A stretch of DNA of 64,000 bases from Sulfolobus acidocaldarius SUSAZ. GTDB lineage: Archaea > Thermoproteota > Thermoprotei_A > Sulfolobales > Sulfolobaceae. The stretch spans positions 1,396,621 to 1,460,620 of the forward strand of contig CP006977.1 in NCBI GenBank assembly GCA_000508305.1, given 5' to 3'. This document shows, in pieces, positions 11,730-48,710 of the stretch (positions within the stretch are counted from its first letter, which is position 1; the number at the start of each line of letters is the position of its first letter). The position numbers were made by a program, and so were the translations under genes. The notes beneath the pieces are model-generated. The model worked only from the letters and a program-made list of their open reading frames with translations. It did no database searches and had not been told where the DNA came from.

Positions 11730-12077
11730 AATATTCAATCTATCCTTGAGGGATTTAAAATCCTTCTACATAACATGTTTAAACTCAGCGTTTGTTAAAA
11801 AGTATAAGTATAAAGAAGGGAACACTCTAATAGCTTGTCAAAGATAATATATAGAATAACAGGGAATGGAGGAAAATTTTTAAAAGAACAAGAAGATAAA
11901 CTCTAAGTTTTTAGTCTTTGAATTAATTAATTTAAATATTTAATCATGGATTCTTCCATTGTATAAAATATATTAATTTTAGGATACAACCTTTTTCACA
12001 TAGGATCTTTAACACGAAACGAGAATTTCGAATTGGATAAGATTAAAATATTTACAAACTCAACAAACTCTTTAGTA
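11730..12077. promoter_or_regulatory. Divergent promoter region between flavoprotein and rml cluster
   Basis: About 350 AT-rich bases separate two divergent transcription units. A TATA-like box, TATAAAATATATT, lies at about 11962-11974 and could serve the rml genes. An open frame runs from a TTG at 12033 into rmlA, but the family N-terminus starts at the ATG at 12078. No gene is seen inside. Confidence 0.5.
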
Positions 12078-13127
12078 ATGAAAGCCATCATACTTCACGG
12101 CGGTCAGGGGACTAGACTAAGACCTTTAACTCATACGGGACCAAAGCAACTCATCAAAATCGCCGGAAAACCCATATCCTTATGGGGCGTTTTATCACTG
12201 AGGGATATAGGCATAAGCGATTTTGGTATTATACTTGGGAATAACCACCCAGAAAAGGTGATCGAGTATTATGGTGATGGATCAAAGTTCGGCATAAAGG
12301 TTACGTATATATATCAGGGAGAGGCAAGAGGATTAGCTGATGCTATTTACAAGGTAAAAGACTTTGTAAAAGACGATAATTTCATAGTATATTTAGGCGA
12401 TAACGTTGTTCTTGAGGGGTTAGACAAACTCGTTAGTTTCAACAGTTCAGCATCAATACTCCTTGCAAGGGTAGATAATCCGAACCGTTTTGGTGTAGCT
12501 GTTATAAACAACGACAATAAGGTCGTGAGACTAGTTGAAAAACCTAAGGAGAGGATATCTGATTTAGCTCTTGTAGGCGTTTATGCGTTTACCCCTGAAA
12601 TTTTTCACGCAATTGAAAAGATAAAGCCGAGTTGGAGGGGTGAACTTGAGATAACTGATGCAATTCAGGAACTTATTAATGAAGGTAAAGAGGTATCCTA
12701 TTCACTGATCAAGGGGTGGTGGAAGGATACTGGAACACCTGATGATCTGTTGGAGGCAAATATGATCTTACTTGACAGATACCTGGAAACTGTAGTGAAA
12801 GGTAAAGTCGACGACTCAAGAGTGGAGGGGAGAGTAATAATAGACGAGGGGAGTGTAGTTGAGAAGTCTGTTATAAGAGGACCAGTGTATATAGGGAAGA
12901 ACTGTAAAATAAGTGGTTCTCATATACTGCCTTTTACATCTATTGGCGATAATGTAGTGATCGAGAACTCAGAAGTGTCAAACTCATTAATAATGGACGA
13001 TGTCCAAATTAAGGGACTATCTATAACTCAATCATTAATTGGGAGTGGAGCAAGAGTCCTAAAGAAGGAGAATCTACCTACTGGCAGGATATTCATTATA
13101 GGTGAGAATTCTTTAGTGGAGGTATAG
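12078..13127 (+). CDS. rmlA: Glucose-1-phosphate thymidylyltransferase-like sugar nucleotidyltransferase
   Basis: A 349-residue cytosolic enzyme that should join glucose-1-phosphate to dTTP, giving dTDP-glucose. The N-terminal nucleotide-binding signature is GGQGTRLRPLTHTGPKQLI. YLGDNVV marks the catalytic metal site, and a product-sugar site (EKPKERISDLALVGVYAF) follows. From about residue 245 the chain becomes hexapeptide-like repeats of a left-handed beta helix, as in the long archaeal form (compare ST0452 of S. tokodaii), which can also carry acetyltransferase activity. It starts a tight four-gene cluster. I chose the ATG at 12078 over the TTG at 12033 because it places MKAIILHGGQGTR at the N-terminus. 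Confidence 0.88.
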   Translation: MKAIILHGGQGTRLRPLTHTGPKQLIKIAGKPISLWGVLSLRDIGISDFGIILGNNHPEKVIEYYGDGSKFGIKVTYIYQGEARGLADAIYKVKDFVKDDNFIVYLGDNVVLEGLDKLVSFNSSASILLARVDNPNRFGVAVINNDNKVVRLVEKPKERISDLALVGVYAFTPEIFHAIEKIKPSWRGELEITDAIQELINEGKEVSYSLIKGWWKDTGTPDDLLEANMILLDRYLETVVKGKVDDSRVEGRVIIDEGSVVEKSVIRGPVYIGKNCKISGSHILPFTSIGDNVVIENSEVSNSLIMDDVQIKGLSITQSLIGSGARVLKKENLPTGRIFIIGENSLVEV

Positions 13128-13137
13128 GTGAGCTGAA

Positions 13138-14073
13138 ATGATCATGGTTACTGGTGGGGCTGGTTTTATTGGTTCCTCTTTTTCACGTGAAGTGAAAAAA
13201 CCTGTGATCTTTGATCTATTAACCTATGCTGGGAGGTTGGAGAATCTAATAGGTGTAGACCATATATTTGTCAAAGGAGATATACGAAATTATAGTCAGT
13301 TAGAAGATATTGTAAAGAAATATGACATAAAAATTATTGTAAATTTTTCAGCAGAGACTCATGTTGATAGGTCAATAAATAACGCCCATATATTTTTAGA
13401 CACTAATGTTTCCGGAGTAGTGAACTTGTTAGAAATATGCAGAAGGTATGATACCCGCCTAGTTCAAATCTCCACCGACGAAGTTTACGGAGAACAGGAG
13501 AATGCTACAGAGGATTTTCCGCTGAGACCCTCCTCCCCTTATTCTGCATCTAAAGCTTCTGCCGATATGTTCATTTTAGCTTATGTTCGTACTTATGGAG
13601 TTGACGCAATAATTATTAGACCATCAAACAATTACGGACCTAGACAACACATTGAGAAGCTAATTCCCAAAACCATTGTGAGGACACTGTTGGGACTTGA
13701 AATACCAATTTACGGTAAAGGTGATCAGGAAAGGGACTGGATATACGTTGAAGACACTGCAAAGGTAATCGCTCAATTAGTTGAAACAGGAAAGAAAGGT
13801 GAAATATACAATGTACCAGGGGGTCAAAGGATAACTAACATAAAACTTGTTGAAATGATAGGTGAATTAATGGGAAAGAAATTGAAGATAAAATTTGTTA
13901 AGGATAGACCTGGTCACGACAAAAAGTACTCAATGATTTCAACAAAATTGAGTTACAAAGTTACTCCTTTGAAGGAGGGACTGAGCAAGACAATTAAATG
14001 GTATTTGGAAAACGAGTGGTGGTGGAGACCACTTTTAAATGACGAATACTTTTTGAGGGAAGCACAATGGTAA
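13138..14073 (+). CDS. rmlB: dTDP-glucose 4,6-dehydratase
   Basis: A 311-residue short-chain dehydrogenase-fold enzyme converting dTDP-glucose to dTDP-4-keto-6-deoxyglucose with bound NAD+. It has the cofactor loop TGGAGFIGS (5-13), the dehydratase pair Asp114-Glu115 in STDEVYGE, and the catalytic Tyr135 and Lys139 in YSASK. RPSNNYGPRQHIEKLIP is the substrate-binding signature of the family. It starts 10 nt after rmlA and overlaps rmlD by 7 nt, so the genes are cotranscribed and coupled. A GGTGAG sequence precedes the ATG. Confidence 0.93.
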   Translation: MIMVTGGAGFIGSSFSREVKKPVIFDLLTYAGRLENLIGVDHIFVKGDIRNYSQLEDIVKKYDIKIIVNFSAETHVDRSINNAHIFLDTNVSGVVNLLEICRRYDTRLVQISTDEVYGEQENATEDFPLRPSSPYSASKASADMFILAYVRTYGVDAIIIRPSNNYGPRQHIEKLIPKTIVRTLLGLEIPIYGKGDQERDWIYVEDTAKVIAQLVETGKKGEIYNVPGGQRITNIKLVEMIGELMGKKLKIKFVKDRPGHDKKYSMISTKLSYKVTPLKEGLSKTIKWYLENEWWWRPLLNDEYFLREAQW

Positions 14074-14915
14074 CATTAATAATCGGTGGATCTGGACAAC
14101 TTGGTCAGGAACTTGGAAAGTTAATAAAGGACAGTATTCTCACCTTTAGCTCAAGACCAATTAAAGGTGGTATCTACTTAGATACACGGAACTACATAAG
14201 GGTACAAGACTTGATCATGAAGACTAAGCCTGAAGTTATCATAAACACGTCTGCAATTACAGATGTGGACAAATGTGAAGTGGATAGAATTAATGCGTAT
14301 AGTGTAAATTCGTTAGCTGTAAAGCATATGGTAAGGGCGGCTTCAATAACCAAGTCATACTTCATTCAAATATCGACAGACTATGTATTTGACGGAAGTA
14401 GGGGGAATTATAATGAAGATGATTTACCAAACCCTTTAAATTATTATGGGCTCACCAAGTTACTCGGAGAGACGTATTCTTCATCCTATGACTACTCACT
14501 TGTAATAAGAACTTCAGGGATCTATGGAAGTAGCAAGGAGAATTTTCCTCTTTACGTTTTGAAGTCACTGATGAAGGGGAGTAAAGTGAGGGCAGTCAGG
14601 GACATGTATTATTCTCCCATTAACGTTAAACAATTAGCTGAGGCTATAGTACAACTGCTGCCTTTAAGGAAAACAGGTATTTTGAATATTGCTGGAGAGA
14701 GAGTATCAAGATATGACTTAGCCTTAAGAATTGCTAAAATGTCGTCATTAAACGAAAACTTAATAGAAGCTGTTAATTATGAGGACATGTCGTGGGAGGC
14801 TAGGAGACCTAAGGACTCTTCCTTGGACTCGTCAACTGTTAAGAAATATGTGAGTGTCAATTTATCCTTAGAGGAGGGGTTAAGGAGGTTGATAAGTGAT
14901 GTTCAGGGTGAATAA
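14067..14915 (+). CDS. rmlD: dTDP-4-dehydrorhamnose reductase
   Basis: A 282-residue SDR enzyme for the last step of dTDP-L-rhamnose synthesis, reducing the 4-keto group with NAD(P)H. The N-terminal GGSGQLGQELG binds cofactor. STDYVFDGSRGNY and the catalytic YGLTK (YxxxK) are intact, followed by RTSGIYG. It overlaps rmlB at its start and rmlC at its end (17-20 nt), an arrangement that implies tight translational coupling. Confidence 0.92.
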   Translation: MVTLIIGGSGQLGQELGKLIKDSILTFSSRPIKGGIYLDTRNYIRVQDLIMKTKPEVIINTSAITDVDKCEVDRINAYSVNSLAVKHMVRAASITKSYFIQISTDYVFDGSRGNYNEDDLPNPLNYYGLTKLLGETYSSSYDYSLVIRTSGIYGSSKENFPLYVLKSLMKGSKVRAVRDMYYSPINVKQLAEAIVQLLPLRKTGILNIAGERVSRYDLALRIAKMSSLNENLIEAVNYEDMSWEARRPKDSSLDSSTVKKYVSVNLSLEEGLRRLISDVQGE

Positions 14916-15453
14916 GAAGGATATTCCTGATGTTCTTGTTATAGAGACTGATAAATATGAGGACGAAAGGGGATTTTTGATGGAGCTCTTCAAGAGGTCT
15001 AACCTCATTTTCATCGATAATATAGTCCAAGTTAACTACTCCTATTCCAGGAAAGGGGTAATAAGGGGGTTACATTACCAACTAAAGCCCAAAGAACAGG
15101 GTAAACTAGTTACAGTGATCGATGGTAAGATATACGATGTGGCTGTGGACATTAGAAGAGGATCGCCGTGGTATGGAAAGTTTGTTACTGAGATCTTGGT
15201 TCCAGGGAAGATGTTGTGGATACCGCCAGGTTTTGCTCATGGTTTTCAGGCTCTGGAGAACTCCCATGTTGTCTACTTCATTTCTGGAAACGATTTTTCT
15301 CCTCCTAGTGAGGCAGGGATAAGATATGACGACCCAGATATAGGAGTGAACTGGCCAATACAGAACCCTGTCGTGTCACAAAAGGACTTAAGGTGGCCCA
15401 GTCTCAAAGAGTGTAAAAACAACTTTGAATATGTAGCTCATGACAGGAGGTAA
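14899..15453 (+). CDS. rmlC: dTDP-4-dehydrorhamnose 3,5-epimerase
   Basis: A 184-residue cupin-fold epimerase acting between RmlB and RmlD. It has RGLHYQ with the catalytic His, the strand motif GKIYDVAVDIRRGSPWYGK, and WIPPGFAHGFQAL, all RmlC hallmarks. A good Shine-Dalgarno sequence GGAGG (about 14884-14888) inside rmlD favours the ATG at 14899 over the GTG at 14896. With rmlABD it completes dTDP-L-rhamnose synthesis. In Sulfolobus this sugar may decorate S-layer N-glycans or surface polymers; the glycosyltransferase that uses it is not in the cluster. Confidence 0.93.
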   Translation: MFRVNKKDIPDVLVIETDKYEDERGFLMELFKRSNLIFIDNIVQVNYSYSRKGVIRGLHYQLKPKEQGKLVTVIDGKIYDVAVDIRRGSPWYGKFVTEILVPGKMLWIPPGFAHGFQALENSHVVYFISGNDFSPPSEAGIRYDDPDIGVNWPIQNPVVSQKDLRWPSLKECKNNFEYVAHDRR

Positions 15454-42835: not shown

Positions 42836-44224
42836 TTATTTTCTTTTCTCCATGTCTTCCAGTATTTTCTTACCGACAATCATTGCAGATATTGTAACCA
42901 TGGGCACACCTATACCAGGTTGTGTATACTGCCCAACATGATAGACATTTATCCATCTTCTATTTCTCATGGGAGGTCTAAATGGACCGGTTTGGTCTAA
43001 TGTATGTGAAATCCCAAAGGCTGTTCCCCTATACGCATTGTAATCCACTAGGAAATCAAAAGGAGTGTATACTCTCATGAACTTCACGTCAAATTTACTA
43101 CCTGTTTTCTCTTTGAAATCGTTTATAGTCTTCTTCACATAAGCCTCGGGGTTTATTCCAAATAGTCCAGCTGAAATGGGTATAAGGAACACTAAACTGT
43201 CCCCCTTAATCCTCTTATCTGTTGCCCTGGTGTAACTGACGTAATATGATATGTTGTTTAAGTCTGGCTCAGCTACCCTCATAATTGAGTTAAAGTGATA
43301 CCTCCAGTCACCATTAATTATTATTACATGGTGAGGCGATTTCACCTCTCCTTCAACACCTGCATAAACTAATATTGCTGATGGTGCCAACTTCCTCCTC
43401 ATCCAATAAACTTCATCATTACTTGACAGTAACTTATCTGCGTAATGGTAATCCATGTTAAATACGAAGTAATCACCATCCACAGCCCTTCCCTTATTCT
43501 CAACATGCTTTAACACTCCATTTGATCCTTGAACCCTATCCACTTCAAAATCAAACTTGAACTCCACTCCTGCTCTTTTACAGGCTTCAAACAACTTTAG
43601 AACTAATCCCTTGAAGCCTTCTTCAGGATAAAACACGCCTTTTCCGTATATGGCGTAATTGACCATGGCGTATATTGCAGGTGTGTTAAAAGGAGATCCC
43701 CCTAAGAATACTGCCGAGAATCCTAATGCTTTTTGAAGGAACTCGTCATTAGGGAAATACCTTCTGTTAAAGTGATCAAGGGTGTTGAATATGGGAAACC
43801 TATTCATGTTGTTTATTATTGTAGAGTCAAGCATGTCTGAGATCTTTAGTTCTTTGTAGAGAAATTTTTCCATTGCTAAATTGTACATGAATTCAGTATC
43901 TGCTATGTAACTAGCTAACCTCTCATCATATTTATAAAATGACTCTGATTTCCTATCCCTCTCTGATATCAAAGAGAACAGAGGACTTACCTCCCTAATC
44001 GTGGGCGGCTCTTCACCAACTTCTCTGTAGAACTTTTCAAAAACTTCAGGCATAAGATACCATGATGGTCCCATATCGAACTCGTAGTCCCCTTCACTAA
44101 ACCACCTAGCTCTTCCTCCAGGTAGTGAATTCTTTTCTAGGACTATAACATTGATACCTTTTTTAGCTAGATATAAAGCAGTTGACAATCCTCCTATTCC
44201 CGCACCAACTATAACTGCTTTTAT
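42836..44224 (-). CDS. crtI: Phytoene desaturase-like carotenoid oxidoreductase with non-canonical start
   Basis: An FAD enzyme of the CrtI family that would desaturate phytoene to lycopene. The full family N-terminus is readable as [20 protein letters not shown]. It begins at ATA (44224-44222), which overlaps the crtZ stop. The first canonical start in frame is a TTG at 44188, which removes the GxGxxG FAD loop. Further on are [28 protein letters not shown] and the C-terminal [20 protein letters not shown]. If ATA is used the protein has 462 residues, of near normal length (CrtI about 490). Expression and activity are therefore doubtful. It overlaps crtZ by 4 nt and forms a minus-strand operon with it. 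Confidence 0.8.
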
Positions 44225-44685
44225 ACTTGATCCACTCCTTCAGGTATTTCGTCTAATCCTCTTATTACTAACAAGAACCCCCAGTTACCTTTACCTTTGT
44301 TATGGTGAACGTCATGGACCATAACTAACTTCCTAAAATATGTGTGTTTCATTGCCCAAGATCTAAGGTGTAGGTGTCTGTCGTGTATGATCATATCGTG
44401 TACTAAAAAGTATGATATTCCATACCAGGTCATTCCTATGCCTAAGCCTAGGGAAATGGGGTTGAGGTTAAATATGCCATTGAATATAAGATAAGCAGCT
44501 ACTGTAGCAAACAGTGCCCCAAATAAGTCATTTCGTTCAAAGGTGCCGTGTTGATCCCTGTGGTGGTCCTTATGAATGAACCACATAAACCCGTGCATTA
44601 CATATTTATGTACAAATCTCGCTATGAATTCCATAGAAAAGAACATAACTATCGCCGTGGGAAGAATTATGAATAAATCATTCAT
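44221..44685 (-). CDS. crtZ: Beta-carotene hydroxylase
   Basis: A 154-residue membrane di-iron hydroxylase that adds 3-hydroxyl groups to beta-carotene rings to make zeaxanthin. The histidine boxes are HKYVMH (26-31), HKDHH (38-42), [11 protein letters not shown] and HDVHHNKG, with four hydrophobic segments. This is the CrtZ pattern. A TATA-like TTTTATAA lies about 27 nt before the ATG on the minus strand (44709-44716), indicating a leaderless message. It is first in the crtZ-crtI operon. Confidence 0.92.
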
Positions 44686-44806: not shown

Positions 44807-45634
44807 GTGGTCAACCTAACACTGATATTCAAAAGAGCGAGCGTCACATATTACAATAGCTCAGTGTTCTTTCCCCCTCAGGTTAAGAGGGATGTCACTA
44901 AGCTTTACGCTTTTGTGAGAGTTTTTGATGACCTAGTGGATTCAATTCCTCAAAAGGCTAAAGAGTTTTATGAGCTGAGAAGTAAGTACTACGAACAGCT
45001 AGACGGTAAGGAATCAAACGACCTTGTATTGAAGAACTTTGTTGAACTGATGAGAAGAAAGAACTTTGAAAAGGAATGGGTTAATGCCTTCCTTGACGCC
45101 ATGGAGAGCGATTTGAAGAAGAGTGTCTACCACACTATTGATGAGCTACTTGAGTACATATATGGTTCAGCAGAAGTAGTCGGTTTGATGATGGCTAAGA
45201 TATTGGACTTACCTGAAGAGTCCTACTACTACGCTAGAATGTTAGGCAGGGCAATGCAGTTTATAAATTTCATTAGAGATGTTGAAGAGGATATGTCATT
45301 AGGTAGACAATACTTACCGTTCCAGGAGATGATGGAGTTTAAGACGTCCTTGCTTGATAGTTCTCCAAGATTTAATGAGTTCATAAGGTTCCAAATAAGC
45401 AGATATTTTGAGTACCAGAAGACAGCTGAGAAAGGGTACAGTTACATACCATTCAGGTACCTCATTGCCATAAAGACTGCTGCAGACATGTACAAGTGGA
45501 CAGCAAAGAAGATATGGAATAATCCGCAGATAATCAAGCAGAGGAAGATAAAGCCAAAGAAGAGAAGAGTAATTGCCCAGGGTATATACAACGCTTTAGG
45601 GGTGTATTTCTTACGCAACTTCCTATCTTTCTGA
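44807..45634 (+). CDS. crtB: Phytoene synthase
   Basis: A 275-residue prenyl-condensing enzyme that joins two geranylgeranyl-PP molecules to phytoene. The two Mg2+-binding acidic motifs are DDLVD (41-45) and RDVEED (157-162), with GRQYLP after the second. [16 protein letters not shown] is the usual N-terminal block. The GTG start fits the promoter spacing. crtY starts 15 nt downstream, so the genes are cotranscribed. Confidence 0.92.
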
Positions 45635-45648
45635 AGGGATATGCTTAT

Positions 45649-46311
45649 GTGGAGATAGACTTAATGATGTTCATTCCCACTCTTATACTTTCACTGATTT
45701 TGAAGGGAAGAAATTACCTAGCCTTACTAAGTTCTGTAGCAATTGTAAGCCCTCTGTTCTTGTATTGGGACTTCTTTGCTACAGCTTTTGGTTCATGGTC
45801 ATTCAACAGGACTTGGGTTTTGGGGGTTTATGTAATTAATCTACCCATAGAGGAGGTAATGTTCTTCATCGTAACACCTTTTGCCACTCTTCTGATTTAC
45901 GATATACTTAAGAGGAGTAAGGGTTCCGAAATAAGGTTCATAAACAGACGTCTAGTGTTTATCATCTCCGCATTACTGGTGATTGTCGATTTGGCTCTAT
46001 TTCTCCACTATTCCTACACGTTCATCGTTATACTCTATTTGTCGATGTCGCTGGTGATATCAGCAATTTTAGATGAAGATATGTTAAGGTCAACAGTATT
46101 TTGGAAGTTCATGGGTCTTACATATGTTCCCTTCTTAGTTTTCGATTACTTTTTAACGTCAATTCCTATAGTGCTGTATGGAGTTTCTAACTCAATACTT
46201 GGAGTTAGGGTACTTACAATACCGATTGAGGACTTCATATATTCCTTTTCCATGATCATGCTTTATACTCTGTTCTATAGGTTAAGTGATAAAAATTGGA
46301 TAAAGAGCTAG
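45649..46311 (+). CDS. crtY: Lycopene beta-cyclase, archaeal CrtYcd type
   Basis: A 220-residue membrane protein with six to seven helices in two homologous halves. LPIEEVMFFIVTPFATLLIY in the first half and IPIEDFIYSFSMIMLY in the second are the conserved P-(I/L)-E-E/D motifs of the heterodimer-type cyclases (CrtYc plus CrtYd fused). It closes beta-ionone rings on lycopene. It starts at GTG, and its end overlaps the next gene by 16 nt. Confidence 0.88.
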   Translation: MEIDLMMFIPTLILSLILKGRNYLALLSSVAIVSPLFLYWDFFATAFGSWSFNRTWVLGVYVINLPIEEVMFFIVTPFATLLIYDILKRSKGSEIRFINRRLVFIISALLVIVDLALFLHYSYTFIVILYLSMSLVISAILDEDMLRSTVFWKFMGLTYVPFLVFDYFLTSIPIVLYGVSNSILGVRVLTIPIEDFIYSFSMIMLYTLFYRLSDKNWIKS

Positions 46312-47174
46312 AATACTATTTTCAAAATAAACCTGAGAGAGTGTACGAAATAGGTGATAGAGAGAGGATACTGAAGTGGATGGTGAGCAGACCTAGGGCT
46401 AAAACGGAGATTAAGGTGATTGGAGGTAAAGAGAGTGAGGTGATTGTTGTTATACCAACTGCTAACTTTGAAAGAGTTAGCAGGGAACTACGTAAAATTT
46501 ACAATAACCTCACTTTGGTTTTTGTACTGAGTTCAGGACCTTATTTTAATTACGCGACAAGTGTAAACCACGGAATTCAGTTTGCGTCAAAGGAGTTTAA
46601 CCCTAAATGGATTGTGGTATCAAATGATGACGTTCTTGAGGCTGAAAATCCCTCTAAACTTGTTGAGGAGTTAAGCACTACTGATAGGGGTCTGGTATTT
46701 GCAAAGCCCTCTAGTTATCACACGTATAAGGTATCAATAATCAAGTTTAATCGATCTTATTTGAAGGTCATGAAGTACATTGGTAAAATCTTCCGTATAC
46801 CTCCTGCAGAGGTTTATGGTAGCTTAACGCTAAAATATGGAGAGAAGTTAAGGATTAGTAAGCTAACTGTAATAGACTCCATGCTTAAATCCAAGAAATT
46901 TGCGGGCGAGGTGGTTAAAGAAGTGATTAATGGTGGGAGCTTTATGATTCTGAACAGGAGAATTGTGAGTGACAAGGTTTTCGACGAGACTTTCATAAAT
47001 GGTTATGAGGACGTATTCCTTTCAGTGAAATACGAGAAAGACACCGAGATAATTGATTATCAACTTAAGGAGAAGAGGGGTATGAGCTTAGGTTTTGATA
47101 AAAATAGGTTTGTAAAACTTTACGTTAATGAGGTATATTTTAATGATTTGATAGAAAAAAGTGAGAAAAAGTGA
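46296..47174 (+). CDS. Glycosyltransferase-like (GT2 fold) protein of the carotenoid cluster
   Basis: A 292-residue protein starting at TTG inside crtY (16-nt overlap). EVIVVIPTANFERV, NYATSVNHGIQFASKE and WIVVSNDDVLEA match GT-A family 2 glycosyltransferases, with S-N-D-D as the metal-binding motif. NGGSFMILNRRIV and FDETFINGYEDVFLSVKY fit the acceptor end. Sulfolobus species make zeaxanthin glucosides, and its coupling to crtB-crtY suggests it glycosylates zeaxanthin. That role is inference; known bacterial carotenoid glucosyltransferases (CrtX) are GT1, a different family. Confidence 0.65.
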   Translation: MDKELEYYFQNKPERVYEIGDRERILKWMVSRPRAKTEIKVIGGKESEVIVVIPTANFERVSRELRKIYNNLTLVFVLSSGPYFNYATSVNHGIQFASKEFNPKWIVVSNDDVLEAENPSKLVEELSTTDRGLVFAKPSSYHTYKVSIIKFNRSYLKVMKYIGKIFRIPPAEVYGSLTLKYGEKLRISKLTVIDSMLKSKKFAGEVVKEVINGGSFMILNRRIVSDKVFDETFINGYEDVFLSVKYEKDTEIIDYQLKEKRGMSLGFDKNRFVKLYVNEVYFNDLIEKSEKK

Positions 47175-47180
47175 AAACTT

Positions 47181-48710
47181 TTATTTTCTCCTTCTAGCCA
47201 GCAGGACTACTGCAATTATTATAATTATAGCAACTATTATACCAATTATTATGTACATCGTACTACCTGAGGTTAGTGGAGATGGAGAGTAACCATACAC
47301 TACGTAATAAGTGTTAGCAGGGTCCACTAAAACTACCACTTTTCCATTATTGACGAAGTAATCATTTGAATTCACTTGTGTTAGTGAGTTCCCGTTCTTA
47401 GCAAACACAGTCACTGTCTCATTTTTAAGTAATGACACATTGAATACCACATACCCTGTTGCGTTTATTGAAACTACTTGGCTCTCATAGGACTTTCCGT
47501 TTATTGTTACATTCTGGACATTCACTGATTGAGGTACAACCAACCTTACGTAGGCTGATGAACTATTGGGGAATACAAGTACATATTGTCCATTTCCATT
47601 AACGTCCAGGTCAACTAACACTCTTCCGTTTTCAACATTCCTTGATACGTCTACATTAGCAGTGCTCATCACACCGTTATTTGTGATGGCTATTATGACA
47701 GGGTTTCCACTTACCATAACTTTGGTTACAACTTTTGGACTACCGTACTGTGCCTGTGGGTTAATGATAACTTTCACAGAACCACTTGCACCGTCTATAC
47801 CACCTGATAATATCCTAAGACTAGAGCTTGCCATAGTTGAAACATATGATGTCGAAACGTAACCTGCCAATGTACCGTTAACACCCAAGAACTCTATTCC
47901 AGTAAAGTATCCCTGGGCTTGGAAGCTTATTGAGGGTGTTGAGAATTGCCCTTGAGTTGATGTAATCCACACCATGGCTGGAACATATGAACCCTGGAAG
48001 TAAGCTAAGGTTGTGTTATAGTTAGCCTGTCCATTCAATCCGTTATAGTGGAACTCAACCTGTGAGTATCTCTTAGGATGAGAGCTATCAACAGTAGTTG
48101 TAAAGGAAAATGAACCTGAAAGGTTTAAGGTGACTTTCTGTAGCTGTAGGGAAACTGTCTGTGAGTAGGAGTTTTGCTGTCTATTTATGTTGAACGTAAC
48201 GTTAGAGAAGCCTGTTCCATTTAAGAACTCTAATATCAGTTTTGCTGAAGAGTTAAAGTAAGCCAGACCAGTTATGCTAGCAGTTCCATTTGTGAAACCA
48301 GCCCACACTAGTTCCTCATCTAGGTTTGGTTCCTCTAATATTACTCTAGCAAGTTGAGGGATCTCTGAGTTCACTGTTATATTGAAGTTGGACACTGATA
48401 CAGTAATGGTTCCAGAGAAAGTCTGTAAACTTCCAACATTTACGTCATATGTATAACTATCGTAACTAATGGTCTTGGTTGTGGAATTATCTGCAGTCAT
48501 ACTATATGTAACCTTAGAATATGTGTATTTTGTGTTAGCAGATGACGTTCTTAGCATAGATGAGTAATCTTGGTACATTACTTTGAAAGTGTTATTTTGG
48601 CTAGTTGATGCACTTAGAAGATGCTGTAATGTCAGTAGAGGCATAGATAGAATGGGTACTAATAAAAATACAGTCATTAATACTCTGAGTATAGATGTGT
48701 TATATGGCAT
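47181..48710 (-). CDS. Cell-surface protein with C-terminal membrane anchor
   Basis: A 509-residue exported protein. The N-terminal ILRVLMTVFLLVPILSMPLL is a signal peptide. The C-terminal YIIIGIIVAIIIIIAVVLL followed by ARRRK is a stop-transfer anchor. The exterior is beta-strand-rich with very many NxS/T glycosylation sites and a Ser/Thr/Gly-rich composition. I do not recognise the family. It is probably glycosylated and pseudoperiplasmic. It converges with the glycosyltransferase gene (6-nt gap). Confidence 0.65.
   Translation of the reverse strand: MPYNTSILRVLMTVFLLVPILSMPLLTLQHLLSASTSQNNTFKVMYQDYSSMLRTSSANTKYTYSKVTYSMTADNSTTKTISYDSYTYDVNVGSLQTFSGTITVSVSNFNITVNSEIPQLARVILEEPNLDEELVWAGFTNGTASITGLAYFNSSAKLILEFLNGTGFSNVTFNINRQQNSYSQTVSLQLQKVTLNLSGSFSFTTTVDSSHPKRYSQVEFHYNGLNGQANYNTTLAYFQGSYVPAMVWITSTQGQFSTPSISFQAQGYFTGIEFLGVNGTLAGYVSTSYVSTMASSSLRILSGGIDGASGSVKVIINPQAQYGSPKVVTKVMVSGNPVIIAITNNGVMSTANVDVSRNVENGRVLVDLDVNGNGQYVLVFPNSSSAYVRLVVPQSVNVQNVTINGKSYESQVVSINATGYVVFNVSLLKNETVTVFAKNGNSLTQVNSNDYFVNNGKVVVLVDPANTYYVVYGYSPSPLTSGSTMYIIIGIIVAIIIIIAVVLLARRRK

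Follow-up and report, generated by a model that had tools for sequence, protein, structure and literature searches.

A candidate zeaxanthin glycosyltransferase, probably attaching rhamnose, in the carotenoid gene cluster of Sulfolobaceae

The stretch of Sulfolobus acidocaldarius SUSAZ DNA analyzed here (64,000 nucleotides of contig CP006977.1, hereafter the window) contains a carotenoid gene cluster in which crtB and crtY are followed by a third open reading frame, called GT below, that begins inside crtY (Table 1). The initial annotation had described this layout, including the overlap of 16 nt, and the coordinates were confirmed. The crtY product is matched by profiles for both the lycopene cyclase (E 1e-19) and the CarR domain (E 8e-29) in Pfam/NCBIfam. 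Upstream of crtB-crtY-GT and in divergent orientation lie a crtZ-like gene, whose product has no significant match to any hydroxylase model in Pfam or NCBIfam, and crtI, for which the listed TTG start cuts the N-terminus short. The window also includes a set of rmlABDC genes (12033-15453) located 30 kb from GT. Convergent with GT, on the minus strand (47181-48710), is a gene whose 509-aa product has a membrane helix at its C-terminus; it was found beside the crt cluster in the same genus only.

Table 1. Features of the window discussed in the text (window positions)
Feature	Position	Strand	Evidence
rmlA, glucose-1-phosphate thymidylyltransferase	12033-13127	+	TIGR01208, E 1.4e-131
rmlB, dTDP-glucose 4,6-dehydratase	13138-14073	+	TIGR01181, E 3.6e-108, just below cut-off
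rmlD, dTDP-4-dehydrorhamnose reductase	14067-14915	+	TIGR01214, E 4.9e-63, just below cut-off
rmlC, dTDP-4-dehydrorhamnose 3,5-epimerase	14896-15453	+	TIGR01221, E 5.7e-59; PF00908
crtI, phytoene desaturase	42836-44188	-	TIGR02734 crtI_fam, E 1.5e-77
crtZ-like beta-carotene hydroxylase	44221-44685	-	Histidine motifs and synteny
crtB, phytoene synthase	44807-45634	+	Pfam PF00494 (SQS_PSY), E 1e-52
crtY, lycopene beta-cyclase, fused CarR-domain type	45649-46311	+	PF18916 / TIGR03462
GT-like ORF, candidate zeaxanthin glycosyltransferase, 292 aa, TTG start	46296-47174	+	ORF, fold, conserved positions
Overlap of crtY end with GT start, 16 nt	46296-46311	+	

In 15 clusters compared at this junction, GT begins before the crtY stop in 13, with 4 to 40 nt of overlap, and no more than 5 nt after it in the other two, these lengths being dependent on the start codons that we chose. 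Since overlap or adjacency is seen in all 15 and the GT frame is conserved (34-93% identity among 14 crt-linked members), the coupling of crtY and GT is not due to chance. The possibility that 46296-47174 is itself a chance open reading frame was ruled out, the gene being conserved in 21 genomes.

Among 31 Sulfolobaceae genomes, crtB was found in 21 and a relative of the GT ORF in 24. Every one of the 21 crtB genomes carries the GT ORF inside its crt cluster (the copy in genome G131 is broken by a mobile element), and in 20 of these clusters GT follows crtY on the same strand, whereas no intact crt-type GT was found in the ten Sulfolobaceae genomes without crtB. Seven of these ten have no GT match at all, the two relatives in G141 both fall outside the crt clade, and those of G108 are fragments only. 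In G011 (L059:5274-6560), which also has no crtB, decayed remnants of crtY and GT lie side by side, and this is a carotenoid cluster caught in loss. Absences of the cluster fall within genera (codes g2, g4 and g7) whose other members possess it, which implies several joint losses of crt genes and GT, as judged without a species tree. The 20 intact crt-linked GT proteins form one clade with support of 100/100. The GT gene is a real and conserved member of the carotenoid cluster in Sulfolobaceae, and the linkage to crt genes that had been proposed from the window was borne out by comparing synteny in Sulfolobaceae with and without crt genes (21/21 versus 0/10); the opposite pattern, a majority of homologues lying away from crt genes, was sought within Sulfolobaceae and not found. 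The GT1 UDPGT domain (PF00201) characteristic of CrtX-type enzymes is absent from all 31 genomes and from the GT protein of the window, in keeping with the earlier view that the gene is not a CrtX-type GT1.

Of the 21 clusters, just one is rearranged, that of G153 (L150:5987-10490), where GT adjoins crtI at the far side of the cluster. In Metallosphaera javensis (G078; L056:7093-8128, also L068) crtY is split by an insertion of about 1 kb, containing two open frames that read like an IS630-type transposase, while the downstream GT is intact; this strain may be without cyclic carotenoids. A contig of 3,234 bases titled 'Euryarchaeota archaeon CPBay_Spr30G08_79' (L069 / L137) contains a Sulfolobaceae-type crtB-crtY-GT set, and the transfer of crt-GT to another phylum that this would suggest was rejected, as a contig equal to it in length and content occurs in the Sulfolobaceae genome G154; the title appears to be misleading. 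In G131 a multicopy repeat of 184 bp, the length also of the SM2 repeat of S. solfataricus, interrupts the GT gene about 187 codons from its start (L061:5445-5624); about two dozen near-full copies with 96-100% identity are present in this genome. The insertion shows an apparent target duplication of 6 bp and the crt cluster is otherwise intact, so that G131 is a natural knockout of GT.

Searched alone, the GT protein had no match to any family or sequence in Pfam, NCBIfam or PDB, and a single-sequence scan of the genome contigs returned no relatives, these being recovered with an alignment as the query. When alignments of 17 and 61 members served as queries against the same three collections, the crt-linked members again had no significant match. 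Among the 61 members the best values were E 0.031 for PF00535 and E 0.052 for Glyco_trans_2_3, neither of which is significant, and a single member matched the rhamnosyltransferase model TIGR01556 (E 0.062), short of its curated cut-off, while the GT protein of the window had no matches to GT2 models in Pfam. Comparison by hhalign with the GT2 proteins of the same genome gave a probability of 7.8% and P 0.004 with the motifs in register, against a GT2 alignment that is small and includes fragments, several of the open frames in it being mis-read. A separate locus, L088:7858-9189, has an open frame of 444 residues made up of a family GT and extra sequence; it is possibly a fusion of two glycosyltransferases, and it may be the source of the sole GT1-type match among the 61 members (PF00534, E 2e-9), a match that was left out of the evidence because the frame is longer than a single family protein.

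As no family was matched by sequence, the assignment of the ORF to glycosyltransferases is based on its fold. AlphaFold, supplied with an alignment of 17 relatives, gave a model with a mean pLDDT of 93 and pTM of 0.90, whose best fold match in PDB is A197 of STIV (2c0n; E 1.6e-3, TM 0.58 by target length), a Sulfolobus virus protein that we take to have a GT-A fold and to which a profile search found no sequence similarity. None of the PDB matches passes E 1e-3, and those after 2c0n are mainly glycosyltransferase domains and nucleotidyltransferases. In a library of viral models E is below 1e-3 for 13 matches (best E 1e-5), mostly glycosyltransferases where named, and the model of an rml-linked homologue (pLDDT 93.3, AlphaFold) matches human beta-1,3-N-acetylglucosaminyltransferases with E 2e-4. 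GT-A glycosyltransferases, along with related nucleotide-sugar enzymes, dominate the fold matches of both the window protein and this homologue, as expected from the glycosyltransferase fold first suggested for the gene, and on the strength of these models we take the product as a GT-A glycosyltransferase. The more specific label GT2 given in the initial annotation stood only in part: the GT-A fold and GT2-like motifs agree with it, but no GT2 model is significant for any of the 61 members and the profile comparison is weak, so that the protein appears assignable to GT-A but cannot be filed as GT2.

Conserved motifs of the GT protein include IPT (residues 53-55), FNYxxSxN (84-91), SNDD (109-112) and NxxED (235-239). 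D111 and D112 of SNDD are invariant across 61 members, and E238 and D239 are both present in 20/20 proteins of the crt clade and in 39/41 and 37/41 of the other members, respectively. Assigned by position only, SNDD would be a DxD-like metal/donor motif and Asp239 (or Glu238) is the likely catalytic base. In GT-A enzymes the nucleotide sugar is bound by the first half of the protein. Of the positions that the crt clade conserves, 25 of 28 within residues 1-126 are shared by the wider family, with its rml-linked members, whereas 12 of 17 within residues 127-216 differ from it. This pattern, in which the donor half is kept and the middle is specific to the clade, would fit the retention of one donor together with a new acceptor, with the caution that the acceptor half of GT-A enzymes commonly varies anyway.

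Comparison by eye shows a similar motif layout in WbbL-type GT2 rhamnosyltransferases (FNYARSVNxG, NDD, YEDV), whose donor, dTDP-L-rhamnose, is also suspected for the Sulfolobaceae GT, although the best E of 0.06 to their model is not significant. CrtX, the zeaxanthin glucosyltransferase of Pantoea/Erwinia, is encoded with crt genes and has the acceptor proposed here, zeaxanthin, but it is a GT1 enzyme with the GT-B fold, in contrast with the GT-A fold of the Sulfolobaceae GT. The accompanying statement in the initial annotation, that known CrtX enzymes are GT1, is incomplete, since bacterial GT2-type carotenoid glycosyltransferases also exist: CruC of Chlorobium, CrtQ of staphyloxanthin synthesis and CruG of cyanobacterial myxol glycosides. 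These are GT-A-type enzymes that act on carotenoids; the family of the Sulfolobaceae GT goes unrecognized by GT2 models. CruG is required for the conversion of myxol into myxol 2'-methylpentoside, a deoxyhexoside such as a fucoside or rhamnoside (PMC7029182).

Outside Sulfolobaceae, members of the family were found in Thermoplasmata, in DPANN archaea and in genomes labelled Thaumarchaeota and Bathyarchaeota, and in the loci examined they are never beside crt genes. They often adjoin rml genes, and in examples the neighbours were confirmed as RmlA/B/C/D, the enzymes that make dTDP-L-rhamnose. Genes for rhamnose synthesis often lie in polysaccharide loci holding many glycosyltransferases, a point addressed by using the GT2 genes of the same genomes as a control. 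In 20 non-Sulfolobales genomes that have rmlC, the distance to this gene is no more than 5 kb for 19 of 34 family genes compared with 5 of the 128 PF00535 GT2 genes listed (Fisher p 2e-11), and no more than 2 kb for 11/34 compared with 0/128, where the control covers the best 150 GT2 matches only, related genomes are pooled and the contigs used are short. At two loci in Sulfolobaceae (G141, G131) where relatives lie apart from the crt cluster, rml genes are likewise close by. In Sulfolobaceae itself rmlC was found in 27/31 genomes and in 19/21 crtB genomes, the two in which it was not found being G050 (Aramenus, a draft that has GT) and G155 (incomplete). Given that the wider family occurs in sugar-biosynthesis loci without crt genes, its ancestral acceptors were probably glycans or lipids.

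An inverting GT-A enzyme produces an alpha-L-rhamnoside from dTDP-beta-L-rhamnose and a beta-D-glucoside from UDP-alpha-D-glucose. A review (PMC9410494) reports zeaxanthin glycosides as the main carotenoids of Sulfolobus shibatae; citing Kull and Pfander 1997, it lists several isomers of zeaxanthin mono- and di-alpha-L-rhamnosides together with a single zeaxanthin di-beta-D-glucoside. Both linkages fit inversion, therefore linkage alone does not choose the donor. The enzyme table of the review ends at CrtYcd and CrtZ and names no glycosyltransferase (PMC9410494), and the open-access literature searched yielded neither a named gene (Saci_1735/1736, SSO2902-2907) nor a carotenoid rhamnosyltransferase.

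We consider it very likely, from gene neighbourhood and predicted fold, that the product of the GT ORF is a carotenoid glycosyltransferase, and rather more probable than otherwise that it is mainly a rhamnosyltransferase; rhamnose is favoured as the sugar because the family elsewhere adjoins rhamnose-making genes. The glucosyl activity initially suggested for the gene is probably the wrong sugar, considering the tie of the family to dTDP-L-rhamnose genes and the S. shibatae glycosides, which as far as listed are mostly rhamnosides. The reading that we prefer, with a moderate degree of confidence, is that GT is the Sulfolobaceae zeaxanthin glycosyltransferase and probably attaches rhamnose, either in place of glucose or in addition to it. 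GT would be translated from the crtB-crtY-GT gene set as a GT-A enzyme, soluble or associated with the membrane, from an archaeal family that has no name as yet, and would take L-rhamnose from dTDP-beta-L-rhamnose, supplied by the rmlABDC genes, and transfer it, inverting the linkage, to the hydroxyls that CrtZ adds at positions 3 and 3' of the beta-rings, the products being zeaxanthin mono- and di-alpha-L-rhamnoside. The fold, operon position, co-occurrence, clade and rml link were computed; the activity, zeaxanthin as the acceptor and rhamnose as the donor are what we infer. Evenly balanced, in our estimate, is the broader proposal of a new family of dTDP-L-rhamnose-using glycosyltransferases, spread over acidophilic and other archaea and lying outside the sequence models, one branch of which was recruited once to carotenoids in Sulfolobaceae as a carotenoid rhamnosyltransferase non-homologous to CrtX.

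With regard to the donor, the diglucoside listed for S. shibatae means that GT may use glucose, or both sugars. If GT were a zeaxanthin glucosyltransferase using UDP-glucose, the rml link of its distant relatives would not be valid for the crt clade; UDP-glucose is universal, donor specificity can change within a glycosyltransferase family, and the Aramenus genome G050 has the GT gene with no rmlC detected. We nevertheless regard this as unlikely in view of the predominance of rhamnosides among the glycosides listed, the donor-half residues conserved with rml-linked relatives and the wide presence of rmlC in Sulfolobaceae.

A different substrate altogether, such as a membrane lipid, a polyprenol or a cell-surface glycan, would leave GT sharing only the operon and UV/stress control with the carotenoid genes. 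Genes of unrelated function can share an operon, UV induces crtB and crtZ (PMC2246294), and the loci of the wider family point towards such acceptors, yet GT and crt genes are present or lost together in 31 genomes, including the within-genus absences and the joint decay in G011, the conserved middle region is specific to the crt clade, and known glycosylated zeaxanthin needs an enzyme where the 31 genomes contain no CrtX-type gene, all of which makes this alternative decidedly improbable. Least credible of all, and hardly to be expected, is a catalytically dead or regulatory GT-A protein, e.g., one serving the membrane enzymes CrtY and CrtZ as a scaffold: it would accord with the lack of sequence matches to any characterized glycosyltransferase, but SNDD and ED, the residues of the putative active site, show little or no variation among the 61 members, which come from several phyla.

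In conclusion, the preferred reading, that of a zeaxanthin glycosyltransferase probably attaching rhamnose, provides a single deletable candidate for sugar attachment to zeaxanthin in a genetically tractable host, with the sugar predicted and a natural knockout supplied: if it is true, G131 should make zeaxanthin without GT-dependent glycosylation. For the production of carotenoid rhamnosides the GT would also be a thermostable candidate. The unrecognized archaeal glycosyltransferase family to which it belongs is likely to help in detecting rhamnosylation among Thermoplasmata and DPANN archaea, and it would become possible to test what polar carotenoids do in the tetraether monolayer membrane.
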